In this document: one piece after another, positions 18,073 through 58,104 of the stretch
How the letters are laid out: the number at the start of each line of letters is the position of its first letter
Numbering within the stretch: the stretch's first letter is position 1
Source of the DNA: a candidate division WOR-3 bacterium
Lineage (GTDB): Bacteria; Hydrothermota; Tepidihabitantia; Tepidihabitantales; Tepidihabitantaceae
Length of the DNA stretch: 64,000 bases
Direction: 5' to 3'
Assembly: GCA_013177935.1 (NCBI GenBank)
Contig: JABLXZ010000002.1
Coordinates: 310,001 to 374,000 of the forward strand
Made by a program: the position numbers and the translations under genes
Notes under the pieces: generated by a model
Database searches by the model: none
The model's input: only the letters and a program-made list of their open reading frames with translations
Told to the model about the DNA's origin: nothing

Positions 18073-18095
18073 GGGGGATGGTAAAACCATCCCCC
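18073..18095 (-). terminator. Hairpin terminator between convergent genes
   Basis: A 10-bp perfect stem (GGGGGATGGT with ACCATCCCCC) with an AAA loop. On the minus strand it is followed by CTTTACTTTTTAG, so it mainly terminates the lipoprotein gene read leftward. It can also act for the DUF5916 gene, which ends 9 nt before it. Confidence 0.8.
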
Positions 18096-18114: not shown

Positions 18115-20241
18115 TTAGCGTCGGAATGTACCGAACTTGCCGGTGTGGCGGATGTCGTGCCGGAACATCGGCCAGGCACTTGGCATCAGATAACCACTAT
18201 TGCGACCGGCAACCGCAAAGATGCCCCGGGTGGTGGCGATGTAGATGATGCCGTACTGGTCAAGCACGGGCGAAGGGAAGATGTCGATGAAGAGATTCCG
18301 GGGTTTAGAACCGGAGCCTTTACGGTCGGTCGAAAAGGTCAAGGTTGTTTCCCACAGTTTGGCGCCGTTGGAGATGTTGATGGCGCACAGTTTCTCGGTT
18401 GTGGTATCGGCAGCGCCGGCAATGTAGAGGACACCATCCGCGGTTAGTACCGGGGTACTGCTTAATGAAGCATTGGGCCAAACTTCGCAATCCCACTCAA
18501 AGTTACCGGAAGAATTTAGTTTGTAGACCCGGCCGTTCTCGCAGCCGAAATAGATATTGCCGTCAATGTCAATGACCGGTGACGAGTTGATGTCGTTGTA
18601 CTCACCTGGTACATGGTAGGTCCAGCGCCAGTTACCATCGGATGTAAGCGAAATCAGGTCGCCCTGGTCGGTGCCGATATAGATATTGCCGTTCTGGTCA
18701 ACCGCGGGTGACGATGTGACGCCGGCGTCAATCAGGTACTGCCAGGACAGTGTGCCGCCCGCCGTAACACAAGTAACATAACCGGAGTCGTCCACAACCA
18801 CAACACGACCATCGGGCAGAATAACCGGCGAAGAGTTGACATCGGTGGGTAAGGCGTAGTTCCAGAGTTCGGTCCAGGAGTTGCCGTTGTCCTGTAGTTT
18901 GCGCAGGGTTTTGTCTTCACCGGCGATGTAGATTGAGTTGCCATCGACCGCGGCGGAACCGGAGAAGGCGTTCTGCGTCAAGGTGTCCGGAAATCCCCAC
19001 TTGATGTTACCGCTCGTGTTGAAGGCGTAGAATCTTCCATTTTCGTTTCCGATATAGATTGTGCCATCACTGCCGATTGCGGGTGAAGAGAGAAACTCCT
19101 CCCAGGTGCCAACACCTTCCGCCGAGACAAACAGGGTTTCAGCCTGATACGGGTCGTAGGCATAAAGCCGCTCATCAGTGCCACCAACAATCAATGCGGG
19201 CCGAGTTTCACTGCCCCGCGCCGCATAACTGAAGGCGGGTGAGGAGACAAACTCTTCACCCGGTAAACCCCACAAAAGTGCGCCTTCACCAACCACAGTA
19301 AACGACTTGACAGCCGATGTTTCAGACACAAGCCCGAGTGAGTCCTGAGCAATTGCCCGGATTTGATAGGTGCCGGTTTGGCTGTAGCGAACCGAATCCA
19401 TTCCGATGCCACCGCTGGGCAGGAACGGCGTCCACTCTGATTCTCGGCCATCACCCCAGATAAACTTATAACGCACCCGGTCGCCTTGCGGGTCGATGGT
19501 GCGAGCGTAAAATCGGTAATAAGGACCGCTGGCGATACCCCGGTTTGGTCCACTGACTACCGGTGCCGGCGGCGCGGTGTTTGTCTGCAGCGCGATGAAA
19601 ACCTTCACCGGTGAAGTGTCGGATATAAGACCGGTTTTATCCCAGGCGACACAGCGGATATTTTTTACCCCGCGATAAAAATATCTTACGGAATCGGTCA
19701 CCGTATCACCGGACGCAACAAGCGGGCTCAAAAGTGAGGTCTGCCCTTCGTCCCAGAGAAACTTTATCTTTACCGAGTCACCATTCGGGTCGATTGCCAC
19801 CGCCTTAAACACCTGCCATTCACCCACCCAGCCCGAATCAGGACCGATTGGCGCACCGACTACCGGTGGCAGATTTTCACCAAGAACAACATTCACAACC
19901 AAGGTATCACTCCACTCCGCGCTGAAGTTTCCCTTGTCGTCTTTGGCGCGCACCCGCACCGGGTAGGTTCCGACCGCCTCCCACAGATGAGTGGCATAAA
20001 CCGTGTCACCGGATGGCACAAGGGCTGAAGTGTCAAACTTCCCATCACCCCAGTCCCAGATGTAGAGCACCCGGTCACGATTGGGGTCGGTGGTAACCGA
20101 GTGATAAGTTGCGCTGTCCCCGAGGGTGACGAGGGTATTGCCAATTGGTTTTGCAGGTATCTGCGGTGGTTTGTTGCGGCAGCCAACTCCGAGGGCGACA
20201 ACCATAATCAGAATTGCTGCCAGAACTAACCTTTTTCCCAT
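18115..20241 (-). CDS. Lipoprotein A: three PKD-like domains plus PQQ-type beta-propeller
   Basis: 708 residues. Signal peptide with a Cys21 after ALGVG (lipobox-like, not fully canonical). Three Ig/PKD-like domains follow at about 29-121, 123-217 and 220-316, each with a D-P-x-x-D-x-V-x-y/f-x-W-D/G-D-G core and S-G-D-T strands. Residues 318-708 are blades of a PQQ-like/WD-type propeller (SSPAIGSDGTIYIGNENGRF repeats). Probably surface-exposed, possibly protein-protein or polysaccharide binding. It has its own TTGACA/TATAAT promoter and an AGGAGG site. Residues 1-121 are identical to the N-terminus of the chimeric gene at 23874, because the 5,750-bp duplication begins inside this gene. Confidence 0.85.
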   Translation of the reverse strand: MGKRLVLAAILIMVVALGVGCRNKPPQIPAKPIGNTLVTLGDSATYHSVTTDPNRDRVLYIWDWGDGKFDTSALVPSGDTVYATHLWEAVGTYPVRVRAKDDKGNFSAEWSDTLVVNVVLGENLPPVVGAPIGPDSGWVGEWQVFKAVAIDPNGDSVKIKFLWDEGQTSLLSPLVASGDTVTDSVRYFYRGVKNIRCVAWDKTGLISDTSPVKVFIALQTNTAPPAPVVSGPNRGIASGPYYRFYARTIDPQGDRVRYKFIWGDGRESEWTPFLPSGGIGMDSVRYSQTGTYQIRAIAQDSLGLVSETSAVKSFTVVGEGALLWGLPGEEFVSSPAFSYAARGSETRPALIVGGTDERLYAYDPYQAETLFVSAEGVGTWEEFLSSPAIGSDGTIYIGNENGRFYAFNTSGNIKWGFPDTLTQNAFSGSAAVDGNSIYIAGEDKTLRKLQDNGNSWTELWNYALPTDVNSSPVILPDGRVVVVDDSGYVTCVTAGGTLSWQYLIDAGVTSSPAVDQNGNIYIGTDQGDLISLTSDGNWRWTYHVPGEYNDINSSPVIDIDGNIYFGCENGRVYKLNSSGNFEWDCEVWPNASLSSTPVLTADGVLYIAGAADTTTEKLCAINISNGAKLWETTLTFSTDRKGSGSKPRNLFIDIFPSPVLDQYGIIYIATTRGIFAVAGRNSGYLMPSAWPMFRHDIRHTGKFGTFRR

Positions 20242-20258
20242 GTATCCTCCTTTTTGTT

Positions 20259-20288
20259 ATTATAAAATGTTTACTATCATTATGTCAA
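20259..20288 (-). promoter_or_regulatory. Promoter of lipoprotein A
   Basis: Minus strand: -35 TTGACA (20288-20283), 18-nt spacer, -10 TATAAT (20264-20259), then a short leader with AGGAGG before ATG 20241. The -35 overlaps the 3' end of the upstream isomerase gene. Confidence 0.8.
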
Positions 20289-21595
20289 GGAGAGTTGTTT
20301 TCCTGATTTGGGCTTTTGACCTCAACATAGATGTTGCGTTCCACCCGGTTAAGGTATTGCCGTAGGCGCTCGGCAAAGGTCTGTTCATAGAGATAGTTGC
20401 GAATCGCATCCTGGACTTCAAGAAATGATAGGATACGGGTAGGTTCTTTGGCGAGAATTTTGATGATGTGAAACCCATGTTCGGAAAGTACCGGTTCGCT
20501 GACCGCACCAGAGTCCAGTTGACTGATTACCTGGTCAAAAGGCGGCATCAATCCATCAATGTAAAAGGTCCCGAGGTAGCCTCCTTGTTTACCGGTTTCG
20601 GGGTCATCGGAGTAGCGGCGGGCAAGGGATTCAAACGGGACATCCTGTTTGAGCATACTTTTTATCTTACGCGCGGTCGCAAGGGCACGCAGGGTGTCGC
20701 TGCGGGTGATGGGTACCGCGATTAAGATTGAACGAAAACGGAGCCGGTTTTTACTTCTTTCGGTTAATTGAGCAATGCAGTAGCCAGTACGGATGCGAAA
20801 GGGCGGAGAAATCTGCCCGGGTTTTAACTGATTAAGGACCAGTTTAAACTCCCAGGGTATGGCATTGGTGTCTTGCCAGCCCCAATCGCCGCCACGGCTG
20901 GCGGTTTTTTTGTCATCCGAGAAGGAGCGGGCAAGGGTGGCAAAGTCGCCGCCTTTTGCAAGGAGGGTCAATATGTCCTGGGCACGCTGGCCAGCGGCCG
21001 CTTCGGCAGAATCGGATGGTTTTGGAGCAATGAGGATGTGACTCAGTTCTACCCTGCCGGGAACACGGGCAATTGAGTCTTTATGCGTGTTGTAGAACTG
21101 TTCGGCTTCGGCGGGCGAGATGTAAATCTGGGTCAGTCCTTCTTTTTCAAGCAGTTTGCGGGCAAGGAGGTTACGGCGGACCTCTTTGCCGATTCGGTCG
21201 CGAAGCTGTTTTTCGGTTAGACCTTCGGCGGCGAGGGTCTGCCGAAAATCTTCTTCCGAAGCGAATCGTTGCTTTAACGAGTTAAGGTTTTCCCCAACTT
21301 CGGCGGCAACCTCTTCACGGGTGACATCAATCGACTCCTGTTCTGCCTGTTCGGAGAGGAGCGCTTCATCAATCAACCGGCGGAGGACGCCGTTCCGGAG
21401 TGTACTGTCATCGGTAACAGTGTCGCCGCTCATAAGTCGCAGGTAGGTCATCAGTTGTAGAACTTCGCTTTCGAGGATGATTTTATTGCCAACGATGGCG
21501 GCGATGCGGTCAGCACTGCCGGCAAAGGCAGCGCCGTCGAAAAGCGAAAGTAGCAAGAGTAAAAGAGAAGCCAGACCGCGACGGGACCGAAACAT
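20285..21595 (-). CDS. SurA-like periplasmic peptidyl-prolyl isomerase, copy 1
   Basis: 436 residues. Signal peptide (cleavage near AAFAG, about 26), a SurA N-terminal chaperone domain (DRIAAIVGNKIILESEVLQL, 29-48), then two parvulin domains at about 180-280 and 285-390 (VELSHILIAP with SFSDDKKTASRGGDWGW; RYSDDPETGKQGGYLG). Parvulins isomerise X-Pro bonds in outer-membrane and secreted proteins. Last gene of a three-isomerase operon, 6 nt after the previous one. Identical to the copy at 26035. Confidence 0.92.
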   Translation of the reverse strand: MFRSRRGLASLLLLLLSLFDGAAFAGSADRIAAIVGNKIILESEVLQLMTYLRLMSGDTVTDDSTLRNGVLRRLIDEALLSEQAEQESIDVTREEVAAEVGENLNSLKQRFASEEDFRQTLAAEGLTEKQLRDRIGKEVRRNLLARKLLEKEGLTQIYISPAEAEQFYNTHKDSIARVPGRVELSHILIAPKPSDSAEAAAGQRAQDILTLLAKGGDFATLARSFSDDKKTASRGGDWGWQDTNAIPWEFKLVLNQLKPGQISPPFRIRTGYCIAQLTERSKNRLRFRSILIAVPITRSDTLRALATARKIKSMLKQDVPFESLARRYSDDPETGKQGGYLGTFYIDGLMPPFDQVISQLDSGAVSEPVLSEHGFHIIKILAKEPTRILSFLEVQDAIRNYLYEQTFAERLRQYLNRVERNIYVEVKSPNQENNSP

Positions 21596-21601
21596 TGACT
21601 G

Positions 21602-22441
21602 TTAGCGCCGGCTGTACTCTTCCGGTTTCAGAGTGATTTTTGCCTTCTCCCGGAGGCTGTTGAGAAGACTGTCCAGAGTGGTACGCCGTTGCTCACTCTT
21701 TAACGCTTCCGAAATGTAGTACTGGGTAATTTCGTTAAAACTGGGATTTTCATTGATTTTTTTCTTCTCTAACACTTTGACAATCTGGTAGCCGAGCGGG
21801 GTGGCAATAACTGGCGACACCTCTCCCGGGTTAAGGGCAAATACCTTTTCTTCATCGCGCAGGCTCCAGCCCAGCGACATACCGACGCCGCGCGTTGGGT
21901 AACCGGGGATGTTGAGCGCGGTGGTGTCCATAGAGCGTTCGCGCGTCAGACGGACAAAATCGGCGCCCTGTTTAAGTTCGCTTAAGGTCTGTTCGGCGGT
22001 GATGGAGTCGGGCAACACCATCAGCATCAACTTTAAACCGAGGGTAAAATCGGTGCGGTGCTCTTGAAAGTATGCGGAGATTTGCTCGGGCGTGGGTTCG
22101 ATTGATTCCGCAATCCGGGAGGCGAGTTCGTTGGCTAAAAACATCCGTTCCATCCAGGCAAGGCCCGAAGCAACCTTTTCGTCTTTTAGATAACCCCGGC
22201 GCACCGCCTCCTCGGCAAGCAAGGCGATTGAGGTCATCCGGTCAAGGATTTTGGGTAAGTTGCTGGGTGAAACCTGAGCCCGCAGTTGTTCGGCGACATA
22301 GTCCACCTGGGGTGCAGTGATTTGGTCACGGTTGACTTGGGCGACGACCTTGCCTTTGGGAGGATGTAATCCAGATGGACTATTGGTGCAATTTAGAAGA
22401 AGCACAATTAAAATAAAACAAATTGTCAACAGGTTTTTCAT
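21602..22441 (-). CDS. Parvulin-type lipoprotein isomerase (PrsA-like), copy 1
   Basis: 279 residues. Signal peptide with lipobox-like LLLNC (Cys18). A SurA_N-like helical part (VVAQVNRDQITAPQVDYVAE) and a single parvulin-like domain at about 135-230 (MVLPDSITAEQTLSELKQGA, then MSLGWSLRDEEKVFALNPGE and GYQIVKVLEKK). Start ATG 22441 with AAGGAG site lying over the stop of the upstream gene, 3 nt apart. Middle gene of the operon. Identical to the copy at 27352. Confidence 0.88.
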   Translation of the reverse strand: MKNLLTICFILIVLLLNCTNSPSGLHPPKGKVVAQVNRDQITAPQVDYVAEQLRAQVSPSNLPKILDRMTSIALLAEEAVRRGYLKDEKVASGLAWMERMFLANELASRIAESIEPTPEQISAYFQEHRTDFTLGLKLMLMVLPDSITAEQTLSELKQGADFVRLTRERSMDTTALNIPGYPTRGVGMSLGWSLRDEEKVFALNPGEVSPVIATPLGYQIVKVLEKKKINENPSFNEITQYYISEALKSEQRRTTLDSLLNSLREKAKITLKPEEYSRR

Positions 22442-22444
22442 CGT

Positions 22445-23776
22445 TCACTCCTTTGTTTGCTTTTCTTTATGCTTTTGGGCAATTTCGGCGGCGACCCTTT
22501 TGAGTACGCCCTGGTTGACACTGATTTTTGCCCGAGAGCGGAGCTGGGCGAGATACTCCTGATACCGGGCGGTGCGTTGTTCCAGGATTAAGTTGTTGCG
22601 GATGAGCGGGGCAACCAGAGCGAAATCTTCTCCCGGATAACGGTCGCGGTGATTCTGATAGTAGTTATAGACATCAGAGTCCGAAACCTGAATCTTACTG
22701 GTTATCATACGGTTATAAAGAGTTTCGTAAAGCAGTTTACGCCGTCGGCGCTCAATTTGTTCTTTGACCTTTGGTGTTTGGTCAAGACGACGCTGCAAGC
22801 CGTCTTCGTACATCAGGTCGTCTTCAATTGCCCGCTTAATCGCATAGGTGCGGATGGCGGTGTCCAAACCGGCTGGAAAGCGGCGTGCGATGTGCAATAG
22901 CCGCCCCACTTTGACATACTTACTTGAATCCCGCACTGCAACCCACACCTCTTTTTCCGCCTCGGTGATTGAATCGACCGGTTTGTAGAATACAGATAAG
23001 CCCTGGGGGTTGTAAACAAGGCGTGCTCTTAACCGGGTAACATACTCATTTGCCGCCTTGCGCTGTCGGGAGATTTTAATCTGCTCTTCAAGTTGCTGCT
23101 TCGCCTCGCCAAATGGTGGAAGGGGTGGGTCGGTTGGACCCCGGTCCAGCAAAAGGACAATCTGATAAGTGGAGTCAAAAAAAATCGGTTTGGTGTACTC
23201 GCCCGGTTGCAGTGCCATAACCGCGCTGCGCATCGGCTCCTCAATATAGTAAACGGGAATCGTACCAACATCGCCCGCGCGGGTGCGGCTCGGGTGTATT
23301 GAATGACGGACCGCGAGGCTTTCAAATTGGGCACCGCTTTGCAGTTCCCGGTAAAGACGTTGAGCAACAGTTTCCTCTTTTACGACGATGACCCGACAAT
23401 GAACCTGAACGCTCAACAAATTGTAAGTTTGCTGTAACTCCTGGGCGCGAACCGGTGGACTGGAGCGAGCGATATCAGAAAAAAGTTCAGAAATTACCAG
23501 ACCCTTCTTTTCCAGTTCTAAGGGATAGGCGATGGCGGAGTCCAGACCCAGGCGTATCGCCTCCTGAACGAACAGCTCCTGATTTATTAATCCCTCGAGA
23601 CACTCCTGAACCGCAATGGACTCTTTTCCCGGCTCAATCGATTGTGGCACAGAACTGATAAGGGCGGACTTTCTTATTGAAATATTGTCTACCCGAGCAA
23701 CTACCGGGTCGGCACTGCTACAGGAGCCGGAGAGGAAAGTTAAAATTAGTGCGAACAAAATAGCGATGGGGCGCAT
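22445..23776 (-). CDS. Parvulin-type lipoprotein isomerase, longer form, copy 1
   Basis: About 443 residues from ATG 23776 (MRPIAILFALILTFLSGSC), giving a clear lipoprotein signal with Cys19. An upstream in-frame ATG at 23860 would add a non-signal extension across a terminator and promoter, so I reject it. A SurA_N-like region (VVARVDNISIRKSALISSVP), a parvulin domain near 155-250 (CRVIVVKEETVAQRLYREL, RHSIHPSRTRAGDVGT) and a helical C-terminal half follow. First gene of the operon, with a leaderless-type promoter 7 nt upstream. Identical to the copy at 28195. Confidence 0.85.
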   Translation of the reverse strand: MRPIAILFALILTFLSGSCSSADPVVARVDNISIRKSALISSVPQSIEPGKESIAVQECLEGLINQELFVQEAIRLGLDSAIAYPLELEKKGLVISELFSDIARSSPPVRAQELQQTYNLLSVQVHCRVIVVKEETVAQRLYRELQSGAQFESLAVRHSIHPSRTRAGDVGTIPVYYIEEPMRSAVMALQPGEYTKPIFFDSTYQIVLLLDRGPTDPPLPPFGEAKQQLEEQIKISRQRKAANEYVTRLRARLVYNPQGLSVFYKPVDSITEAEKEVWVAVRDSSKYVKVGRLLHIARRFPAGLDTAIRTYAIKRAIEDDLMYEDGLQRRLDQTPKVKEQIERRRRKLLYETLYNRMITSKIQVSDSDVYNYYQNHRDRYPGEDFALVAPLIRNNLILEQRTARYQEYLAQLRSRAKISVNQGVLKRVAAEIAQKHKEKQTKE

Positions 23777-23783
23777 CAAACAA

Positions 23784-23811
23784 ACATTACCGGCAATCGG
23801 CTTAAAGTCAA
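23784..23811 (-). promoter_or_regulatory. Leaderless-type promoter of the isomerase operon, copy 1
   Basis: Minus strand: -35 TTGACT (23811-23806), 16-nt spacer, -10 TAATGT (23789-23784), 7 nt to ATG 23776. Confidence 0.65.
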
Positions 23812-23820
23812 GATAAAAAA

Positions 23821-23845
23821 CAGGGGGATGGAAACCATCCCCCTG
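23821..23845 (-). terminator. Rho-independent terminator after the chimeric lipoprotein
   Basis: An 11-bp perfect stem (CAGGGGGATGG with CCATCCCCCTG) and a 3-nt loop, followed on the minus strand by TTTTTT. It separates the lipoprotein transcript from the isomerase operon promoter just downstream. Confidence 0.88.
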
Positions 23846-23873
23846 CGCGTGTAGGAGCAAATAATTATGTGCC

Positions 23874-25991
23874 CTACTTTTTACCGGTGTTGTACTCGTC
23901 TTTTTGCCACTTGGGCCAGGGCGCGCCCTGCATTAGGGTGCCGTCTGTGGGACCGATGACACAGTACATATAGTTACTACCGACGACGATGATATCACCG
24001 GTTGGACCAACCGCAAGGCTCGGGTAGCTTTCTTCAAGCAGACGGCGCGGCCGATGCGTCCTGCTTCGCCCTGCAACCTGTGTATAGCAGTCAGCAACCC
24101 ACTTGAGGTCTCCGGTTGCCTGGTCCAGCGCCCACAGTTGGTCCTCATCATCCATAAAATAGAGGTAGCCGTTGGCAGCAAGGAGCGGGGAGCCGATGAT
24201 TTCGTTTGTTGTGTGCTGCTGGCTCCAGCCTTCGTTGCCGTTAGCGGGCTGGAGGGCAACAACCTTACCACCACTGGTGGCGACAAACAGATACGATGGG
24301 CTTAAAACCAGCCCGGCAATTCCTGCCGGGTCAACAAGTTTTTCCCACTTCTTGGAGCCGTCTTCGTTTATCGCATAAACATAACCGGAGTCGTCACCAA
24401 CATAGATGACACCGTCGTCACCCATTACCGGTGAACCCAGAGCAGAGTTCAGACGAAGCGTGCAGACCCATGCCGGGCTCTGGATATTCGGTTCCATCTT
24501 ATAAACTGTTCCGTTGTCGAGCGCGACCAAAACATAGCCGGAACGGTCAATGACCGGTGCACCAACAACACTCGCCGGCAGTTTGTAGGCACCAAGACGA
24601 TTACAGGCACTGCCCGCATCCTGGAGGTAATATAAGGTGTCGTTGGCATCGGATACGATGTAGATGTTATTGCCGTTGATTGCCGGTGTACCCCAGCCGT
24701 GCTCAGTGGTGTCGGGCTGCCATTTCCACGCCTGACTCAGACCGCTGGCTTCCAGTGCATAAAGGTAGCCGTCGTCGCTTCCGATGATAATGTGTGCCAG
24801 GTTTGCACAGTAGGCAGGATTGCCCTGGAAGATGTAAGATTCCGGGTCCGGTTTACTGCTGTTTGCCGAATTCTTTTTTCTGCCGTCACCGTATTTGACC
24901 GAGTAGAAGTAACCGTCATCGCAGTAGGTGTAAATCAATGTGTCGACACCGCTAATGACCACCGCCGGTGATGCGATGGGTGGTTCTGAGTCTCCGCTAA
25001 CTGTCCCGGCGAAGTACCAGCGGACGCGTCCCTGGGCAACAACGGTAATCACGGTTGATTCCGGGGCGCACTCTGAGCGCTTTTTATCCCGGGCTTTTAC
25101 CTTTACCGTAAAGTTGCCAGTGTCGTCGTATTGGTGAGTATAGGAAAGTGTTTCCCCAGAAGCGACAAATGTGCCAACCCATCCCTTGGAACCGTCGCCG
25201 AAGTCGAAATAAAACTCAATCGAATCGCCTTCTGGGTCGGTGGCGCTGGCGATGAACTCCTGGTCAACCTTCTTCGGGACTAAGTTTGGTACCCAGAACC
25301 AGAGGTTTTCCGGTGGGTTGTTGGGCAGCACGCGAATCTGTTTTGCCTCAGACCATTCCGAGATTTTTGTCGGGTCTTCGTCAAGATAGGCAGCGACTTT
25401 GTAGCTGAATGTTCCGACCTGGGTCCATTTTGGAGTGATGACAACGGTGTCACCACTTGGCGACACATCGGAGGTGTCCATTTTGCCATCAGGCTGACCG
25501 AGGTCAACGATGAACCGGACATCTTTGTTCCCGGAAACAGATGTGAACACCCGGATTGAGGTCGTGGCGTTGACCCAGGTTGATTCCGGTGAATAGGAGA
25601 TTATCGGCGTTGAGGGTGCCTTGGACTTGCCAAGAACAACATTCACAACCAAGGTATCACTCCACTCCGCGCTGAAGTTTCCCTTGTCGTCTTTGGCGCG
25701 CACCCGCACCGGGTAGGTTCCGACCGCCTCCCACAGATGAGTGGCATAAACCGTGTCACCGGATGGCACAAGGGCTGAAGTGTCAAACTTCCCATCACCC
25801 CAGTCCCAGATGTAGAGCACCCGGTCACGATTGGGGTCGGTGGTAACCGAGTGATAAGTTGCGCTGTCCCCGAGGGTGACGAGGGTATTGCCAATTGGTT
25901 TTGCAGGTATCTGCGGTGGTTTGTTGCGGCAGCCAACTCCGAGGGCGACAACCATAATCAGAATTGCTGCCAGAACTAACCTTTTTCCCAT
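23874..25991 (-). CDS. Chimeric lipoprotein A/B created at the duplication joint
   Basis: 705 residues: residues 1-121 equal lipoprotein A (signal, Cys21, first PKD-like domain) and residues 122-705 equal residues 24-607 of lipoprotein B (two further PKD-like domains and a propeller). The switch (LVVNVVLG then KSKAPST) falls exactly at the tandem-repeat joint 25629/25630 and keeps the reading frame. The gene has the promoter and AGGAGG site of gene A and the terminator of gene B. It would be an exported lipoprotein with one extra PKD domain compared with B. Whether it exists in the cell depends on the duplication being real. Confidence 0.85.
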   Translation of the reverse strand: MGKRLVLAAILIMVVALGVGCRNKPPQIPAKPIGNTLVTLGDSATYHSVTTDPNRDRVLYIWDWGDGKFDTSALVPSGDTVYATHLWEAVGTYPVRVRAKDDKGNFSAEWSDTLVVNVVLGKSKAPSTPIISYSPESTWVNATTSIRVFTSVSGNKDVRFIVDLGQPDGKMDTSDVSPSGDTVVITPKWTQVGTFSYKVAAYLDEDPTKISEWSEAKQIRVLPNNPPENLWFWVPNLVPKKVDQEFIASATDPEGDSIEFYFDFGDGSKGWVGTFVASGETLSYTHQYDDTGNFTVKVKARDKKRSECAPESTVITVVAQGRVRWYFAGTVSGDSEPPIASPAVVISGVDTLIYTYCDDGYFYSVKYGDGRKKNSANSSKPDPESYIFQGNPAYCANLAHIIIGSDDGYLYALEASGLSQAWKWQPDTTEHGWGTPAINGNNIYIVSDANDTLYYLQDAGSACNRLGAYKLPASVVGAPVIDRSGYVLVALDNGTVYKMEPNIQSPAWVCTLRLNSALGSPVMGDDGVIYVGDDSGYVYAINEDGSKKWEKLVDPAGIAGLVLSPSYLFVATSGGKVVALQPANGNEGWSQQHTTNEIIGSPLLAANGYLYFMDDEDQLWALDQATGDLKWVADCYTQVAGRSRTHRPRRLLEESYPSLAVGPTGDIIVVGSNYMYCVIGPTDGTLMQGAPWPKWQKDEYNTGKK

Positions 25992-26008
25992 GTATCCTCC
26001 TTTTTGTT

Positions 26009-26038
26009 ATTATAAAATGTTTACTATCATTATGTCAA
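26009..26038 (-). promoter_or_regulatory. Promoter of the chimeric lipoprotein
   Basis: Exact copy of the lipoprotein A promoter: -35 TTGACA, 18-nt spacer, -10 TATAAT on the minus strand. Confidence 0.8.
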
Positions 26039-27345
26039 GGAGAGTTGTTTTCCTGATTTGGGCTTTTGACCTCAACATAGATGTTGCGTTCCACCCGGTT
26101 AAGGTATTGCCGTAGGCGCTCGGCAAAGGTCTGTTCATAGAGATAGTTGCGAATCGCATCCTGGACTTCAAGAAATGATAGGATACGGGTAGGTTCTTTG
26201 GCGAGAATTTTGATGATGTGAAACCCATGTTCGGAAAGTACCGGTTCGCTGACCGCACCAGAGTCCAGTTGACTGATTACCTGGTCAAAAGGCGGCATCA
26301 ATCCATCAATGTAAAAGGTCCCGAGGTAGCCTCCTTGTTTACCGGTTTCGGGGTCATCGGAGTAGCGGCGGGCAAGGGATTCAAACGGGACATCCTGTTT
26401 GAGCATACTTTTTATCTTACGCGCGGTCGCAAGGGCACGCAGGGTGTCGCTGCGGGTGATGGGTACCGCGATTAAGATTGAACGAAAACGGAGCCGGTTT
26501 TTACTTCTTTCGGTTAATTGAGCAATGCAGTAGCCAGTACGGATGCGAAAGGGCGGAGAAATCTGCCCGGGTTTTAACTGATTAAGGACCAGTTTAAACT
26601 CCCAGGGTATGGCATTGGTGTCTTGCCAGCCCCAATCGCCGCCACGGCTGGCGGTTTTTTTGTCATCCGAGAAGGAGCGGGCAAGGGTGGCAAAGTCGCC
26701 GCCTTTTGCAAGGAGGGTCAATATGTCCTGGGCACGCTGGCCAGCGGCCGCTTCGGCAGAATCGGATGGTTTTGGAGCAATGAGGATGTGACTCAGTTCT
26801 ACCCTGCCGGGAACACGGGCAATTGAGTCTTTATGCGTGTTGTAGAACTGTTCGGCTTCGGCGGGCGAGATGTAAATCTGGGTCAGTCCTTCTTTTTCAA
26901 GCAGTTTGCGGGCAAGGAGGTTACGGCGGACCTCTTTGCCGATTCGGTCGCGAAGCTGTTTTTCGGTTAGACCTTCGGCGGCGAGGGTCTGCCGAAAATC
27001 TTCTTCCGAAGCGAATCGTTGCTTTAACGAGTTAAGGTTTTCCCCAACTTCGGCGGCAACCTCTTCACGGGTGACATCAATCGACTCCTGTTCTGCCTGT
27101 TCGGAGAGGAGCGCTTCATCAATCAACCGGCGGAGGACGCCGTTCCGGAGTGTACTGTCATCGGTAACAGTGTCGCCGCTCATAAGTCGCAGGTAGGTCA
27201 TCAGTTGTAGAACTTCGCTTTCGAGGATGATTTTATTGCCAACGATGGCGGCGATGCGGTCAGCACTGCCGGCAAAGGCAGCGCCGTCGAAAAGCGAAAG
27301 TAGCAAGAGTAAAAGAGAAGCCAGACCGCGACGGGACCGAAACAT
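26035..27345 (-). CDS. SurA-like peptidyl-prolyl isomerase, copy 2
   Basis: 436 residues, identical to the protein at 20285-21595: signal peptide, SurA_N domain and two parvulin domains. It exists because of the 5,750-bp tandem duplication. Last gene of the second isomerase operon. If the duplication is genuine the cell makes a double dose of the three chaperones. Confidence 0.92.
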   Translation of the reverse strand: MFRSRRGLASLLLLLLSLFDGAAFAGSADRIAAIVGNKIILESEVLQLMTYLRLMSGDTVTDDSTLRNGVLRRLIDEALLSEQAEQESIDVTREEVAAEVGENLNSLKQRFASEEDFRQTLAAEGLTEKQLRDRIGKEVRRNLLARKLLEKEGLTQIYISPAEAEQFYNTHKDSIARVPGRVELSHILIAPKPSDSAEAAAGQRAQDILTLLAKGGDFATLARSFSDDKKTASRGGDWGWQDTNAIPWEFKLVLNQLKPGQISPPFRIRTGYCIAQLTERSKNRLRFRSILIAVPITRSDTLRALATARKIKSMLKQDVPFESLARRYSDDPETGKQGGYLGTFYIDGLMPPFDQVISQLDSGAVSEPVLSEHGFHIIKILAKEPTRILSFLEVQDAIRNYLYEQTFAERLRQYLNRVERNIYVEVKSPNQENNSP

Positions 27346-27351
27346 TGACTG

Positions 27352-28191
27352 TTAGCGCCGGCTGTACTCTTCCGGTTTCAGAGTGATTTTTGCCTTCTCC
27401 CGGAGGCTGTTGAGAAGACTGTCCAGAGTGGTACGCCGTTGCTCACTCTTTAACGCTTCCGAAATGTAGTACTGGGTAATTTCGTTAAAACTGGGATTTT
27501 CATTGATTTTTTTCTTCTCTAACACTTTGACAATCTGGTAGCCGAGCGGGGTGGCAATAACTGGCGACACCTCTCCCGGGTTAAGGGCAAATACCTTTTC
27601 TTCATCGCGCAGGCTCCAGCCCAGCGACATACCGACGCCGCGCGTTGGGTAACCGGGGATGTTGAGCGCGGTGGTGTCCATAGAGCGTTCGCGCGTCAGA
27701 CGGACAAAATCGGCGCCCTGTTTAAGTTCGCTTAAGGTCTGTTCGGCGGTGATGGAGTCGGGCAACACCATCAGCATCAACTTTAAACCGAGGGTAAAAT
27801 CGGTGCGGTGCTCTTGAAAGTATGCGGAGATTTGCTCGGGCGTGGGTTCGATTGATTCCGCAATCCGGGAGGCGAGTTCGTTGGCTAAAAACATCCGTTC
27901 CATCCAGGCAAGGCCCGAAGCAACCTTTTCGTCTTTTAGATAACCCCGGCGCACCGCCTCCTCGGCAAGCAAGGCGATTGAGGTCATCCGGTCAAGGATT
28001 TTGGGTAAGTTGCTGGGTGAAACCTGAGCCCGCAGTTGTTCGGCGACATAGTCCACCTGGGGTGCAGTGATTTGGTCACGGTTGACTTGGGCGACGACCT
28101 TGCCTTTGGGAGGATGTAATCCAGATGGACTATTGGTGCAATTTAGAAGAAGCACAATTAAAATAAAACAAATTGTCAACAGGTTTTTCAT
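27352..28191 (-). CDS. Parvulin-type lipoprotein isomerase (PrsA-like), copy 2
   Basis: 279 residues, identical to the protein at 21602-22441 (lipobox-like LLLNC, one parvulin domain). Same spacing and ribosome site as copy 1. Confidence 0.88.
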   Translation of the reverse strand: MKNLLTICFILIVLLLNCTNSPSGLHPPKGKVVAQVNRDQITAPQVDYVAEQLRAQVSPSNLPKILDRMTSIALLAEEAVRRGYLKDEKVASGLAWMERMFLANELASRIAESIEPTPEQISAYFQEHRTDFTLGLKLMLMVLPDSITAEQTLSELKQGADFVRLTRERSMDTTALNIPGYPTRGVGMSLGWSLRDEEKVFALNPGEVSPVIATPLGYQIVKVLEKKKINENPSFNEITQYYISEALKSEQRRTTLDSLLNSLREKAKITLKPEEYSRR

Positions 28192-28194
28192 CGT

Positions 28195-29526
28195 TCACTC
28201 CTTTGTTTGCTTTTCTTTATGCTTTTGGGCAATTTCGGCGGCGACCCTTTTGAGTACGCCCTGGTTGACACTGATTTTTGCCCGAGAGCGGAGCTGGGCG
28301 AGATACTCCTGATACCGGGCGGTGCGTTGTTCCAGGATTAAGTTGTTGCGGATGAGCGGGGCAACCAGAGCGAAATCTTCTCCCGGATAACGGTCGCGGT
28401 GATTCTGATAGTAGTTATAGACATCAGAGTCCGAAACCTGAATCTTACTGGTTATCATACGGTTATAAAGAGTTTCGTAAAGCAGTTTACGCCGTCGGCG
28501 CTCAATTTGTTCTTTGACCTTTGGTGTTTGGTCAAGACGACGCTGCAAGCCGTCTTCGTACATCAGGTCGTCTTCAATTGCCCGCTTAATCGCATAGGTG
28601 CGGATGGCGGTGTCCAAACCGGCTGGAAAGCGGCGTGCGATGTGCAATAGCCGCCCCACTTTGACATACTTACTTGAATCCCGCACTGCAACCCACACCT
28701 CTTTTTCCGCCTCGGTGATTGAATCGACCGGTTTGTAGAATACAGATAAGCCCTGGGGGTTGTAAACAAGGCGTGCTCTTAACCGGGTAACATACTCATT
28801 TGCCGCCTTGCGCTGTCGGGAGATTTTAATCTGCTCTTCAAGTTGCTGCTTCGCCTCGCCAAATGGTGGAAGGGGTGGGTCGGTTGGACCCCGGTCCAGC
28901 AAAAGGACAATCTGATAAGTGGAGTCAAAAAAAATCGGTTTGGTGTACTCGCCCGGTTGCAGTGCCATAACCGCGCTGCGCATCGGCTCCTCAATATAGT
29001 AAACGGGAATCGTACCAACATCGCCCGCGCGGGTGCGGCTCGGGTGTATTGAATGACGGACCGCGAGGCTTTCAAATTGGGCACCGCTTTGCAGTTCCCG
29101 GTAAAGACGTTGAGCAACAGTTTCCTCTTTTACGACGATGACCCGACAATGAACCTGAACGCTCAACAAATTGTAAGTTTGCTGTAACTCCTGGGCGCGA
29201 ACCGGTGGACTGGAGCGAGCGATATCAGAAAAAAGTTCAGAAATTACCAGACCCTTCTTTTCCAGTTCTAAGGGATAGGCGATGGCGGAGTCCAGACCCA
29301 GGCGTATCGCCTCCTGAACGAACAGCTCCTGATTTATTAATCCCTCGAGACACTCCTGAACCGCAATGGACTCTTTTCCCGGCTCAATCGATTGTGGCAC
29401 AGAACTGATAAGGGCGGACTTTCTTATTGAAATATTGTCTACCCGAGCAACTACCGGGTCGGCACTGCTACAGGAGCCGGAGAGGAAAGTTAAAATTAGT
29501 GCGAACAAAATAGCGATGGGGCGCAT
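28195..29526 (-). CDS. Parvulin-type lipoprotein isomerase, longer form, copy 2
   Basis: About 443 residues from ATG 29526, identical to the protein at 22445-23776. It has the same leaderless-type promoter and is the first gene of the second isomerase operon. Confidence 0.85.
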   Translation of the reverse strand: MRPIAILFALILTFLSGSCSSADPVVARVDNISIRKSALISSVPQSIEPGKESIAVQECLEGLINQELFVQEAIRLGLDSAIAYPLELEKKGLVISELFSDIARSSPPVRAQELQQTYNLLSVQVHCRVIVVKEETVAQRLYRELQSGAQFESLAVRHSIHPSRTRAGDVGTIPVYYIEEPMRSAVMALQPGEYTKPIFFDSTYQIVLLLDRGPTDPPLPPFGEAKQQLEEQIKISRQRKAANEYVTRLRARLVYNPQGLSVFYKPVDSITEAEKEVWVAVRDSSKYVKVGRLLHIARRFPAGLDTAIRTYAIKRAIEDDLMYEDGLQRRLDQTPKVKEQIERRRRKLLYETLYNRMITSKIQVSDSDVYNYYQNHRDRYPGEDFALVAPLIRNNLILEQRTARYQEYLAQLRSRAKISVNQGVLKRVAAEIAQKHKEKQTKE

Positions 29527-29533
29527 CAAACAA

Positions 29534-29561
29534 ACATTACCGGCAATCGGCTTAAAGTCAA
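29534..29561 (-). promoter_or_regulatory. Leaderless-type promoter of the isomerase operon, copy 2
   Basis: Exact copy of the promoter at 23784-23811: -35 TTGACT, 16-nt spacer, -10 TAATGT, 7 nt to ATG 29526. Confidence 0.65.
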
Positions 29562-29570
29562 GATAAAAAA

Positions 29571-29595
29571 CAGGGGGATGGAAACCATCCCCCTG
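29571..29595 (-). terminator. Rho-independent terminator after lipoprotein B
   Basis: Same 11-bp stem, 3-nt loop and T6 tract (minus strand) as at 23821-23845. Confidence 0.88.
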
Positions 29596-29623
29596 CGCGT
29601 GTAGGAGCAAATAATTATGTGCC

Positions 29624-31447
29624 CTACTTTTTACCGGTGTTGTACTCGTCTTTTTGCCACTTGGGCCAGGGCGCGCCCTGCATTAGGGTGCCGTCTGTGG
29701 GACCGATGACACAGTACATATAGTTACTACCGACGACGATGATATCACCGGTTGGACCAACCGCAAGGCTCGGGTAGCTTTCTTCAAGCAGACGGCGCGG
29801 CCGATGCGTCCTGCTTCGCCCTGCAACCTGTGTATAGCAGTCAGCAACCCACTTGAGGTCTCCGGTTGCCTGGTCCAGCGCCCACAGTTGGTCCTCATCA
29901 TCCATAAAATAGAGGTAGCCGTTGGCAGCAAGGAGCGGGGAGCCGATGATTTCGTTTGTTGTGTGCTGCTGGCTCCAGCCTTCGTTGCCGTTAGCGGGCT
30001 GGAGGGCAACAACCTTACCACCACTGGTGGCGACAAACAGATACGATGGGCTTAAAACCAGCCCGGCAATTCCTGCCGGGTCAACAAGTTTTTCCCACTT
30101 CTTGGAGCCGTCTTCGTTTATCGCATAAACATAACCGGAGTCGTCACCAACATAGATGACACCGTCGTCACCCATTACCGGTGAACCCAGAGCAGAGTTC
30201 AGACGAAGCGTGCAGACCCATGCCGGGCTCTGGATATTCGGTTCCATCTTATAAACTGTTCCGTTGTCGAGCGCGACCAAAACATAGCCGGAACGGTCAA
30301 TGACCGGTGCACCAACAACACTCGCCGGCAGTTTGTAGGCACCAAGACGATTACAGGCACTGCCCGCATCCTGGAGGTAATATAAGGTGTCGTTGGCATC
30401 GGATACGATGTAGATGTTATTGCCGTTGATTGCCGGTGTACCCCAGCCGTGCTCAGTGGTGTCGGGCTGCCATTTCCACGCCTGACTCAGACCGCTGGCT
30501 TCCAGTGCATAAAGGTAGCCGTCGTCGCTTCCGATGATAATGTGTGCCAGGTTTGCACAGTAGGCAGGATTGCCCTGGAAGATGTAAGATTCCGGGTCCG
30601 GTTTACTGCTGTTTGCCGAATTCTTTTTTCTGCCGTCACCGTATTTGACCGAGTAGAAGTAACCGTCATCGCAGTAGGTGTAAATCAATGTGTCGACACC
30701 GCTAATGACCACCGCCGGTGATGCGATGGGTGGTTCTGAGTCTCCGCTAACTGTCCCGGCGAAGTACCAGCGGACGCGTCCCTGGGCAACAACGGTAATC
30801 ACGGTTGATTCCGGGGCGCACTCTGAGCGCTTTTTATCCCGGGCTTTTACCTTTACCGTAAAGTTGCCAGTGTCGTCGTATTGGTGAGTATAGGAAAGTG
30901 TTTCCCCAGAAGCGACAAATGTGCCAACCCATCCCTTGGAACCGTCGCCGAAGTCGAAATAAAACTCAATCGAATCGCCTTCTGGGTCGGTGGCGCTGGC
31001 GATGAACTCCTGGTCAACCTTCTTCGGGACTAAGTTTGGTACCCAGAACCAGAGGTTTTCCGGTGGGTTGTTGGGCAGCACGCGAATCTGTTTTGCCTCA
31101 GACCATTCCGAGATTTTTGTCGGGTCTTCGTCAAGATAGGCAGCGACTTTGTAGCTGAATGTTCCGACCTGGGTCCATTTTGGAGTGATGACAACGGTGT
31201 CACCACTTGGCGACACATCGGAGGTGTCCATTTTGCCATCAGGCTGACCGAGGTCAACGATGAACCGGACATCTTTGTTCCCGGAAACAGATGTGAACAC
31301 CCGGATTGAGGTCGTGGCGTTGACCCAGGTTGATTCCGGTGAATAGGAGATTATCGGCGTTGAGGGTGCCTTGGACTTGGGGCAGCCAAGGGATATGAGT
31401 CCCACGAATGCCGCAACCAAAGCGACTAGACCGAAACTTCTTTTCAT
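29624..31447 (-). CDS. Lipoprotein B: PKD-like domains plus PQQ-type beta-propeller
   Basis: 607 residues. Signal peptide with Cys22 after LISLG (lipobox-like). Two PKD/Ig-like domains at about 27-125 and 128-222 (DPEGDSIEFYFDFGDGSKGW carries the D-P-x-G-D and F-D-F-G-D-G core). A propeller of repeated blades at 225-607 (IIIGSDDGYLYALEASG, VIYVGDDSGYVYAINEDGSK). The start has GGGAGG at 7-nt spacing. It follows the Ig-repeat gene by 30 nt and probably shares its promoter. From residue 24 onward it is identical to the chimera at 23874. Likely surface or periplasmic, partner unknown. Confidence 0.85.
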   Translation of the reverse strand: MKRSFGLVALVAAFVGLISLGCPKSKAPSTPIISYSPESTWVNATTSIRVFTSVSGNKDVRFIVDLGQPDGKMDTSDVSPSGDTVVITPKWTQVGTFSYKVAAYLDEDPTKISEWSEAKQIRVLPNNPPENLWFWVPNLVPKKVDQEFIASATDPEGDSIEFYFDFGDGSKGWVGTFVASGETLSYTHQYDDTGNFTVKVKARDKKRSECAPESTVITVVAQGRVRWYFAGTVSGDSEPPIASPAVVISGVDTLIYTYCDDGYFYSVKYGDGRKKNSANSSKPDPESYIFQGNPAYCANLAHIIIGSDDGYLYALEASGLSQAWKWQPDTTEHGWGTPAINGNNIYIVSDANDTLYYLQDAGSACNRLGAYKLPASVVGAPVIDRSGYVLVALDNGTVYKMEPNIQSPAWVCTLRLNSALGSPVMGDDGVIYVGDDSGYVYAINEDGSKKWEKLVDPAGIAGLVLSPSYLFVATSGGKVVALQPANGNEGWSQQHTTNEIIGSPLLAANGYLYFMDDEDQLWALDQATGDLKWVADCYTQVAGRSRTHRPRRLLEESYPSLAVGPTGDIIVVGSNYMYCVIGPTDGTLMQGAPWPKWQKDEYNTGKK

Positions 31448-31477: not shown

Positions 31478-32503
31478 TTATCTTGTTACAACTGGTCCGT
31501 GGAAATAGCCAATTTCCGGATAACGGCAGAAACCGCCTTTACCGTCTTCAAAGTAGAAGTAATAGTTGTGGAACGCGCCCGGATATAGCCGGGTTTGGTA
31601 CCGGTAGAGACCAGTGTGGGGTTTACCGCCGACCAGACGCATCTCAAAGGGTTTACCATTTATATAGATTTCGGCTCGAGCCGGTGGGTCGTTGTTCGGG
31701 TCCCGGTATTCTACATAGTAGGTAAAAACGGTATTGGGATAGCCGGCAGCGGGTTCAACCTTTTCACCCATCAAAGCGGGCGAGCGATTTTCCAGTTCAC
31801 CAACTTTTGGTCCGAAGATGACGCCGTGCTTTGGGTGAAGCACGCAGGAGCCGCAGTCGTCAATGCCTACAAAGTAGTACACATGGTTACCCGGGGTTAA
31901 AGTGGTTTTGTAGTAATAGATTCCAGCAGCGGGTGTACCCTGAAGTAGTGCCATATCGTAGGGTATCCCGTCAATTACTACGCGCACCGCCTTTGGGTTT
32001 TTGCCGTCTTTATCGAGGTACTCAACGGTAAATGTGTACATATTGGTCCCGGTGATATAATCTTCATGAACGCCACCGTTACTGAGCACCGGCAGCCGGT
32101 CGTAAATCTGTTTCCCAGTGCCCACAAACGGTCCGGGTTTTTCGCCGTAGCGGGGGAAGCGAATTGACATTCCCCGCACATCCTCGGCGTAGAAGTAGTA
32201 CTTGTGTTCACCCGGGGGCAGGGTCAACCGTGCCTGATAAATACCGGCGGATGGCTTGCCTTTTACACGGCGCATTGGATAAGCGATGCCATCGATATAA
32301 ACCTCAACCTTTGCTGGCGGGTCGTTGTCCGGATCAGAATACCGGACCTGGGCGATATAAACATTTCTGGCGCTTCCCTGGATTGGCGTTATCTTTGCCC
32401 CGCAAAGGCAAGGGCTGTTGTTTGCCATTTCGGCAAAGACGGGCAGGGTAAGAGCCAGAAATATTATCGCAGCTGCCGCAAAAGCGATACCTTCTTTGCG
32501 CAT
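31478..32503 (-). CDS. Secreted protein with three Ig-like repeats
   Basis: 341 residues from ATG 32503 (MRKEGIAFAAAAIIFLALT), chosen over ATG 32533 because AAGGAGG sits four nt before it. Signal peptide cleaved near VFAE. Then three similar units of about 100 residues, each with Y-x-D-x-x-x-x-P-x-x-V/A-x-V/I-x-I-D/N-G, a G-x-P-x-x-G-I/L-Y turn and P-G-x-H-x-Y-Y-F, and each ending in a G-P-x-V/F-like boundary. Two pairs of Cys lie between repeats. This is a beta-sandwich repeat of the kind used in extracellular adhesion or cell-surface assembly. No enzyme motif. Probably co-transcribed with lipoprotein B. Confidence 0.8.
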   Translation of the reverse strand: MRKEGIAFAAAAIIFLALTLPVFAEMANNSPCLCGAKITPIQGSARNVYIAQVRYSDPDNDPPAKVEVYIDGIAYPMRRVKGKPSAGIYQARLTLPPGEHKYYFYAEDVRGMSIRFPRYGEKPGPFVGTGKQIYDRLPVLSNGGVHEDYITGTNMYTFTVEYLDKDGKNPKAVRVVIDGIPYDMALLQGTPAAGIYYYKTTLTPGNHVYYFVGIDDCGSCVLHPKHGVIFGPKVGELENRSPALMGEKVEPAAGYPNTVFTYYVEYRDPNNDPPARAEIYINGKPFEMRLVGGKPHTGLYRYQTRLYPGAFHNYYFYFEDGKGGFCRYPEIGYFHGPVVTR

Positions 32504-32542
32504 TCTTCCTCCTTTTAGGTTGCAGCTTGCCAAGTTAGGTAA

Positions 32543-32570
32543 ATTATAAGTTTAAGTTGTTCAATGTCAA
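32543..32570 (-). promoter_or_regulatory. Promoter of the Ig-repeat/lipoprotein B transcript
   Basis: Minus strand: -35 TTGACA (32570-32565), 16-nt spacer, -10 TATAAT (32548-32543), a leader of about 33 nt with AAGGAGG. Confidence 0.8.
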
Positions 32571-32633: not shown

Positions 32634-33359
32634 GTGCGCGTTTTTGTTGGAACCTCAGGCTGGTTCTACTCCTGGAATCCAGAGCGGCGGCTGGACTGGT
32701 TTGTTTCCCGGTCGGGTCTGAATGCGGTTGAACTGAACGCCTCGTTTTACCGGTTTCCATTTCCGAATCAGGTTAAATCGTGGGCGAATAAGGGCAAAAA
32801 TTTGCGCTGGGCAGTAAAGGTTTCCCGGCTGGTTACACACCAATACCGTTTCAGCGAAGAAGGTTATAAAGCGTGGGAAAAGTTCCGTGCGCTTTTTGAG
32901 CCGCTGGATTTCCTGATTGATTTTTATTTATTTCAACTTCCACCCCAATTGACCCCGCAAACAAAGCAGCGAATTGGCGATTTTGTTCGCCAGACCGGTT
33001 TGGGCAAAAGGTTTGCCCTGGAGTGCCGGAACAACGAATGGTTGAACCCCGAGACCGAACTGTGGGCAAAGGAACTGGGAATTACTCTTGTTTCGGTAGA
33101 TGCGCCGACGCTCTCCCGCGAGATTTTCAATAGTTCCGGGCTTATTTATCTTCGTATGCACGGGAGAGAGGGTTGGTATCACCACAATTACACCAGCCGC
33201 GAGTTACGAGAAGTGGTCCAAAAAGTCCGGGCGAAGAAACCGAAGGCGGCATATGTTTTCTTCAACAATGATGAGGCTATGCTCAATAATGCCCGGATGA
33301 TGCTCAAACTGCTTTCCCATCACCCAGACCTCTCCCGCAAGGGGAGAGGAGAAATGTAA
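32634..33359 (+). CDS. DUF72 (YecE-like) protein with a repeat-derived tail
   Basis: About 241 residues from GTG 32634. The TIM-barrel DUF72 signature is clear: VRVFVGTSGWFYSWNP at the start, AVELNASFYRFP (about 35-46), RWAVKVSRLVTH, FQLPPQ, FALECRNNEWL, LIYLRMHGREGWYHHNYT and YVFFNNDEAMLNNA. Function unknown in the family. The start was moved from TTG 32601, which is the -35 box itself. The last dozen codons (HHPDLSRKGRGEM) are encoded by a hairpin repeat element (R2), so the natural C-terminus seems to have been replaced or extended by the insertion. Confidence 0.88.
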   Translation: MRVFVGTSGWFYSWNPERRLDWFVSRSGLNAVELNASFYRFPFPNQVKSWANKGKNLRWAVKVSRLVTHQYRFSEEGYKAWEKFRALFEPLDFLIDFYLFQLPPQLTPQTKQRIGDFVRQTGLGKRFALECRNNEWLNPETELWAKELGITLVSVDAPTLSREIFNSSGLIYLRMHGREGWYHHNYTSRELREVVQKVRAKKPKAAYVFFNNDEAMLNNARMMLKLLSHHPDLSRKGRGEM

Positions 33360-36043: not shown

Positions 36044-36954
36044 TAGAGCAGAAGAGCAGAAGCGCAGAAGAGCAGAGGGGAATGACGGCGGGCAATCCTT
36101 ATAAGCCGGTACCGGTGCGGATTGAGCGGGTGACGATTGAAAATGACGCGCGGGATTTGAAAACTTTTGACCTGCGGTTTGTTGATGAGAGCGAAAGGGG
36201 TAAGTGGAGTTTTTTGCCCGGGCAGTTTGCCTTTCTTTCCATTGCTGGTGTGGGTGAGGCGCCGTTCGGGATTGCGAGTGCGCCGGATGAGGAGTTGTTG
36301 AAATTCACCGTGAAGCGCGTGGGCGCTTTTACGACCGCTTTGCATGAGATGGATGAGGGTGCGGTCATCGGCTTGCGCGGACCGTTCGGTTCCACCTATC
36401 CCTGGACATTGATGTCGGGTCGGGATATTTTAATTGTTTCGGGCGGTTTCTCCTTCACCACCCTGCGCGCGGTGATTGTCCACATTCTGAAAAAAGAGAA
36501 CCGGCCCAATTACGGCAGATTGGTTGTGGTTTATGGCGCCCGAACACCAGGAGAACTGCTTTACAAAGTGGAGTTAAAAGCGTGGAGCAAAAGCCCGGAA
36601 CTGGAGTTGAATTTGTGCGCGGACCGGGTCTGTGGCGCCGACTTTTTTGTCCAGGATAATGAAGGCGAAACAGCGGTGCGCGAGGGTCTGGTGCCGGAGA
36701 TTTTAAAAGGGGTGAAGATTGAAGCGGGCAATGCGGTGGCGCTGGTGTGCGGACCGCCAATAATGCTGCGCTTTACCCATCCGGTTTTGAAGGATATGGG
36801 ATTTAAGCCCGAGCAGGTTTTCCTGTCCCTGGAGAATCGGATGAAGTGCGGGATTGGTAAGTGCGGCCGCTGTAACATCGGTCCGAAGTATGTGTGCAAA
36901 GATGGTCCGGTTTTTTCCTATGAGGAGTTGCTCCGGCTACCGGAGGATTATTGA
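36040..36954 (+). CDS. FlxA / sulfhydrogenase gamma-like NAD(P)H:flavin oxidoreductase
   Basis: 304 residues from ATG 36040 (ATGA overlap); the first 14 are encoded by the purine repeat (EQKSRSAEEQR), and ATG 36082 with a GAGGGGA site could give the conserved protein alone. Domains: FAD-binding barrel (WSFLPGQFAFLSIAG, about 50-64), NAD(P) part (GLRGPFGSTYPW near 112, ILIVSGGFSFTTLRAV), CGPPIMLRFT, and a C-terminal [2Fe-2S] motif MKCGIGKCGRCNIGPKYVC. It would oxidise NADH or NADPH and feed the Fe-S chain. This is the only NAD(P)-binding FNR-type subunit in the operon. Confidence 0.9.
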   Translation: MIEQKSRSAEEQRGMTAGNPYKPVPVRIERVTIENDARDLKTFDLRFVDESERGKWSFLPGQFAFLSIAGVGEAPFGIASAPDEELLKFTVKRVGAFTTALHEMDEGAVIGLRGPFGSTYPWTLMSGRDILIVSGGFSFTTLRAVIVHILKKENRPNYGRLVVVYGARTPGELLYKVELKAWSKSPELELNLCADRVCGADFFVQDNEGETAVREGLVPEILKGVKIEAGNAVALVCGPPIMLRFTHPVLKDMGFKPEQVFLSLENRMKCGIGKCGRCNIGPKYVCKDGPVFSYEELLRLPEDY

Positions 36955-40209: not shown

Positions 40210-40322
40210 TTGAGCAGGAGAGCAGGAGAGCAGAAGAGCAGAAGGGCAGAAGCCCTCACCCCTACCCCTCTCCCACAAGGGGCGAGGGGAGAATGAGCGG
40301 AAGGGCTGAAGAGCAGAAGGGT
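40206..40322 (+). repeat. R1-R2-R1 repeat inside the start of the fused HdrA gene
   Basis: R1 (40209-40252), the R2 hairpin (40253-40295; CCCCTCTCCCACAAGGGGCG core) and R1 again (40296-40322). Translated as EQESRRAEEQKGRS, PHPYPSPTRGEGR, MSGRAEEQKG. The hairpin's right arm plus ATG (GAGGGGAGAATG at 40284-40295) also makes an internal ribosome site and start. Confidence 0.85.
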
Positions 40323-45208: not shown

Positions 45209-45256
45209 ATGAGTACCGAAGAGCAGAAGAGCAGAAGCGCAGAAGAGGAGGGGCGA
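45209..45256 (+). repeat. R1 purine repeat at the start of the FdhB-like gene
   Basis: GAAGAGCAGAAGAGCAGAAG and continuation up to GAGGAGGGGCGA directly before ATG 45257. The repeat's 3' end supplies an AGGAGG ribosome site for the downstream ATG. The block GGAGGGGCGAATGATTATTC recurs at 53354-53373. Confidence 0.8.
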
Positions 45257-58066: not shown

Positions 58067-58104
58067 AAGGTCGGTAAACTCTTTGCACGGAAAGGAGTGC
58101 CGTA

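Follow-up and report, generated by a model that had tools for sequence, protein, structure and literature searches.

The DNA analysed here, referred to as the window, is a stretch of 64,000 nucleotides from a candidate division WOR-3 bacterium (assembly GCA_013177935.1, contig JABLXZ010000002.1, positions 310,001 to 374,000). It contains a 5,750-bp segment in two abutting copies, and the joint between them fuses the front of one lipoprotein gene (A) in frame to the back of another (B). This arrangement is probably a real and very recent short-junction tandem duplication, carried by at least part of the population. Coordinates are positions in the window; its genome is G000, and the relatives are labelled G001 to G017.

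Comparison of 19880-25629 with 25630-31379 gave 5,750 identical bases out of 5,750, back to back and in direct orientation, with the sizes and borders that the initial annotation had reported. The maximal match at an offset of 5750 ended exactly at these borders, with the next base differing at either end; the seam therefore has zero microhomology, as had been claimed.

19880..25629, unstranded: first copy of the repeated unit (5,750 bp), without any mismatch to the second; maximal match
25630..31379, unstranded: copy 2 of the unit, identical to copy 1 at every base
25629..25630, unstranded: seam between A (codon 121) and B (codon 24), with zero shared bases

Two adjacent copies in the same orientation, a single novel joint, intact A and B genes outside it and a single-copy ancestral state (see below) are as expected of a direct tandem duplication. 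We surveyed 701,515 bases, comprising all of contig C2, which holds the unit, and the two ends of every other contig. After the unit itself, the longest exact repeat was 294 bp, and inside C2 the only other exact repeats of at least 100 bp were those of 294 and 181 bp. Because nothing else exceeded 294 bp, an exact repeat of 5,750 bp is far beyond chance; because it was the only large one, we discarded a wider tendency of the assembly to duplicate sequence.

The joint lacks long homology: the longest word shared by A and B is 18 bp and lies elsewhere. In the assembled sequence, recombination between long homologies is excluded at the joint, which leaves illegitimate, short-junction duplication as the remaining known route. 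No insertion sequences or long repeats that would point to a mobile element were found at the unit ends. There was no repeat at these ends beyond the unit itself, and its main open reading frames (ORFs) were all assigned to lipoproteins and peptidyl-prolyl isomerases (PPIases), in line with the earlier statement that the duplication bears no mobile-element signature. The seam sequence was also searched in viral contigs, for a phage or viral occurrence of the joint, and had no match. A CTTGG motif is present both where A is broken and 6 nt ahead of the break in B. We set it aside, as a 5-mer shared within 6 nt occurred in 23% of random joints (1.8% in the strict form).

Relatives of the bacterium were found to hold the arrangement from which such a duplication would start. 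In the nearest species, G001 (same genus, ~83-84% DNA identity to the window's genome), a single block of B, PPIase1, PPIase2, PPIase3 and A occurs in unchanged order and with the same neighbours on both sides. The same block is present in G002, whose contig starts inside B. The occurrence of just one such block, with its order unchanged, in G001 and, as far as the contig reaches, in G002 supports a real duplication. PPIase1-PPIase2-PPIase3-A is kept in G006, G010 and G014, with the B homologue more than 200 kb away in G010 and on another contig in G014; in the more distant G004, G005, G012 and G015, the three PPIase genes stand together without A. A second full-length PPIase2 or PPIase3 was found in none of 17 other species of the family, and only the window's genome has two. 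The initial annotation had proposed a search of related genomes for the chimera; we ran it, and found no protein with the front of A and the back of B in the relatives examined. Going by these genomes, the duplication is confined to that of the window.

Some further rearrangements were seen in these genomes. In G012 (another genus; contig C257, L117 5936-6243 and 7946-8253), a 308-bp stretch that includes the end of PPIase3 and the bases behind it recurs 2,010 bp further downstream with 95.5% identity; here the same gene was partly duplicated in an independent event. In G015 (contig C278, L118 3000-11928), at least five genes for lipoproteins with PKD repeats and a propeller stand in a row, two of them on the opposite strand to the other three, and neighbours share DNA stretches of 71-80% identity, an older tandem expansion of the family. 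Synteny with G001 ends just past the gene adjoining the 351-aa gene next to B (window 32634-33317 and beyond; L019 1-3500), and G001 there matches a repeat-rich stretch at G000:C1:606748-612721 instead.

The duplication could have come about as follows. From the ancestral minus-strand order B, PPIase1, PPIase2, PPIase3, A, a new joint would have formed between A (codon 121) and B (codon 24), with the intervening 5,750 bp copied. This would leave A and B intact on the outside and create a chimeric A'-'B gene between them. From A would come the promoter, the ribosome-binding site, the signal peptide with the lipobox and the first PKD domain of the chimera, and from B its PKD repeats, propeller and terminator. 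The joint itself may have arisen by end joining or template switching, and the chimera is presumably transcribed.

The resulting minus-strand order is the 351-aa gene, B, PPIase1, PPIase2, PPIase3, chimera, PPIase1, PPIase2, PPIase3 and A. The features are listed below.

18073..18095, minus: terminator-like hairpin after A, conserved in G001
18115..20241, minus: intact lipoprotein A, 708 aa, PKD repeats and a PQQ/BamB-type propeller, 89% identical to the G001 orthologue
20259..20288, minus: promoter of A, TTGACA-18-TATAAT, 12/12 consensus match, conserved in G001
20285..21595, minus: PPIase3, SurA-like, 436 aa, copy 1
21602..22441, minus: PPIase2, putative lipoprotein, 279 aa, copy 1
22445..23776, minus: PPIase1, putative lipoprotein, copy 1, ATG start chosen
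23820..23846, minus: terminator-like hairpin after the chimera (B's terminator), 12-bp stem
23874..25991, minus: chimeric lipoprotein, 705 aa, A 1-120 + Gly + B 24-607
26009..26038, minus: chimera promoter (copy of A's)
26035..27345, minus: PPIase3, copy 2
27352..28191, minus: PPIase2, copy 2
28195..29526, minus: PPIase1, copy 2, ATG start
29570..29596, minus: terminator-like hairpin after B, conserved in G001 with a changed loop
29624..31447, minus: intact lipoprotein B, 607 aa, PKD repeats and propeller, 92% identical to the G001 orthologue
31478..32533, minus: 351-aa gene upstream of B, outside the repeat, same neighbour in G001
32543-32570, minus: consensus promoter of the 351-aa gene

For PPIase1, the ORF list gives a longer form with a TTG start at 23860 that overlaps the terminator, and we preferred the ATG. 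The three isomerase genes that had been noted as doubled are indeed present in both copies and encode PPIC-type PPIases, the third being SurA-like. Lipoprotein-type signal peptides were read at the starts of A, B, PPIase1 and PPIase2, and the promoter spacing and both of the strong terminator-like hairpins are kept in G001. From its protein families, the locus looks like an envelope-protein folding cluster.

The in-frame fusion described in the initial annotation was reproduced in full: the 705-residue ORF consists of residues 1-120 of A, a glycine and residues 24-607 of B. Codon 121 is a hybrid, with GG from A and C from the Pro23 codon of B. The 12/12 consensus promoter of A lies inside the unit and was copied before the chimera, which agrees with the earlier proposal that gene A's promoter would drive it. 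As the unit carries both this promoter and B's terminator, the chimera is a complete predicted transcription unit, equipped by sequence with a promoter, a signal peptide, three PKD modules, a propeller and a terminator. It shares A's architecture and nearly its length (705 versus 708 aa). The extra PKD domain that had been ascribed to it is extra relative to B but not to A, which already has three PKD-like repeats.

The seam lies just past the first PKD domain of A (Pfam match 33-114, joint at 121) and, on the B side, just past the lipid-anchor Cys22, so every domain is whole in the chimera. By chance, one in three co-directional duplications would give an in-frame fusion. A position between domains on both sides is less probable by chance, but it was noticed afterwards and is only a hint of selection. 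A homologues vary in length and PKD content, from 644 aa in G017 (L040 1042-2976, fewer PKD repeats) to 902 aa in G015 (L037 832-3540, extra PKD repeats), compared with 708 aa for A; judged from these homologues, PKD number in the family changes over time, which makes a protein built like the chimera plausible. Its AlphaFold model was poor (mean predicted local distance difference test score, pLDDT, 57.6; predicted template modelling score, pTM, 0.43), with residues 120-124 in a low-confidence stretch between two strands, and was not used for a fold search. Compared with named genome contigs, the chimera had only distant PKD matches in Acidobacteria and archaea. The proposal that a new surface protein had been made is unproven; the sequence shows a candidate gene with its signals. 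That the chimera is a new gene at birth, expressed and kept by selection, and shows how the large PKD-propeller lipoprotein families of this lineage, represented here by assembled genomes only, gain modules, appears doubtful to us.

Comparable joints are known. In Staphylococcus aureus, short-junction tandem duplications create nusG'-'sigH and rplK'-'sigH fusions (PMC3486894), which resemble the present case in being kilobase-scale direct tandem duplications with one joint and with the parental genes intact outside it. The S. aureus units are 1.2 and 1.9 kb, compared with 5.75 kb here, and are flanked by direct repeats of 7-8 bp, whereas no such repeat was found at our endpoints (0 bp, only the CTTGG offset by 6 nt). 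Moreover, they occurred in at most 1e-5 of cells and were found by selection, and a fusion protein was shown by Western blot (PMC3486894); our chimera is predicted from sequence. The event is thus of the same kind as the nusG'-'sigH fusions but without the short repeat. In Pseudomonas fluorescens SBW25, recent direct tandem duplications lacked obvious endpoint homology in three of five isolates; they differ in their size (45-290 kb) and in having been selected for a tRNA gene (PMC7661048). Salmonella chemostat populations are alike in that duplication joints arise constantly (PMC3411829), and work on duplication-based promoter capture shows that such joints can bring genes under new promoters (PMC11111574 and works cited there).

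What the two copies can prove depends on how the assembly was built. The genome consists of five contigs with 1,956,872 bp in total, of which C2 accounts for 543 kb. Read outwards, C1 at its start and C5 at its end agree exactly over the terminal 127 bases and differ beyond them; between the C2 start and the C3 end, the exact agreement covers 126 bases, offset by one base. Contig-end tails of about k shared bases are a trait of SPAdes-type assemblers, and since two independent pairs stop at 126-127 bases, they are the mark of a short-read de Bruijn graph with k of about 127. There is no shared sequence at the seam to cause a k-mer misjoin, so the seam needs reads crossing it, and an assembly with k=127 should not create it without them. 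We infer that the joint exists in cells, since a k-mer assembly needs reads across it. As a check that needs no reads, exact contig-end overlap reveals the assembly method and what its repeats can and cannot prove.

At another contig end, a CRISPR-like array (GTTTCAATCCTTGTTTTAGTGGATACATCATCATAAC) reaches the end of C4 (L111), and C5 (L089) begins with the 36-bp repeat of this array; C4 and C5 probably join there.

Several points weigh against a real duplication with two copies. The k=127 diagnosis is based on two contig-end pairs. Short reads cannot span an exact repeat of 5,750 bp, and the two copies are a matter of graph logic and not of measurement. Random ligation commonly yields a joint with zero microhomology (56% of random joints), and the confirmed Salmonella duplications had at least 11 bp of it, compared with zero here (PMC3411829). 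This lack of microhomology raises the probability of an artefact without deciding the question. Exact identity fits recency, but both copies collapsed to one graph edge would yield it as well, and it is no independent clock.

One alternative concerns the state of the array and is a subdivision of our favoured explanation. The seam would be real, but a fixed two-copy array would be wrong, the duplication being present in a subpopulation, amplified to three or more copies or excised as a 5.75-kb circle. We consider this share of all cases to be somewhat short of even. All of these forms would give the same de Bruijn loop, whose shortest path would be flank, unit, seam, unit and flank; the two copies presumably represent this path, so the true copy number is unmeasured. 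Unless selection maintains them, two identical direct copies of 5.75 kb should readily disappear through homologous recombination. The S. aureus duplications were lost at ~1e-2 to 1e-3 per overnight culture (PMC3486894), and at least 20% of Salmonella cells carry some duplication (PMC3411829). The sequence does not separate these forms, but an autonomous circle is the least likely, as no replication or excision genes were found among the ORFs of the unit.

It is unlikely, though a serious concern, that the duplication is an artefact of assembly or library preparation and that the genome is single-copy. The joint could stem from a chimeric library molecule (random ligation, or the untrimmed circularization junction of a mate-pair fragment of ~5.7 kb) or from two contigs joined end to end with a 5,750-bp overlap left untrimmed. 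Zero shared bases at the joint (within the random range of 0-2 bp for ligation or mate-pair chimeras) and exact identity match the signature of such artefacts, the close relatives are single-copy, and junction microhomology has been used to separate true rearrangements from ligation chimeras (PMC3411829). However, there was only one such event in 701 kb, and the surveyed sequence had no Ns. Graph cleaning would seldom leave a lone chimeric molecule in place. The contig ends showed no overlaps of several kilobases with each other, only convergent sharing of 126-127 bp and the 36-bp dovetail, which speaks against an untrimmed contig overlap.

Unequal homologous crossing-over between A and B was rejected as highly improbable, there being no identity at the joint. 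The genes are paralogous (profile alignment E 8.5e-85), the joint lies between PKD domains, and the chimera is almost as long as A. The 18-bp shared word, however, lies far off in the propeller part, and a profile alignment without the chimera pairs the first PKD domain of A with that of B, which places the joint at non-equivalent positions; the equivalent positions seen in an alignment containing the chimera reflected its bias. A join of two diverged strain variants, possible in principle in a metagenome assembly, is very improbable, since the copies are identical throughout and a k-mer graph needs shared sequence to switch strains, which the joint lacks. Among the options raised in the initial annotation, a recent duplication is therefore favoured, the strain-variant join is disfavoured by the identity of the copies, and the choice between a real event and an artefact has been narrowed by the k=127 graph.

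The window also holds other repeats. Runs of an 8-nt unit (AGAGCAGA and variants) lie between genes at 19 places within 33382-53473 (including 36045-36085, 40211-40334, 45204-45260 and 46690-46747), some of them followed by a CCCTCACCC...CAAGGGGCGAGGG element. At 4400-4842 there is a tandem repeat with a 120-nt period, of which copies 1 and 3 are 97% alike and the middle register 67%, with 181 bp exact at an offset of 240. A cobalamin riboswitch was found at 57898-58076 on the plus strand (90.5 bits).

The setting of the duplication is a locus for periplasmic folding factors and PKD-propeller lipoproteins, and genomes of the family contain from about ten to about seventy matches each to the latter. 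If real, the duplication would be a fresh case, with zero divergence, of chimeric secreted proteins being made by random duplication.

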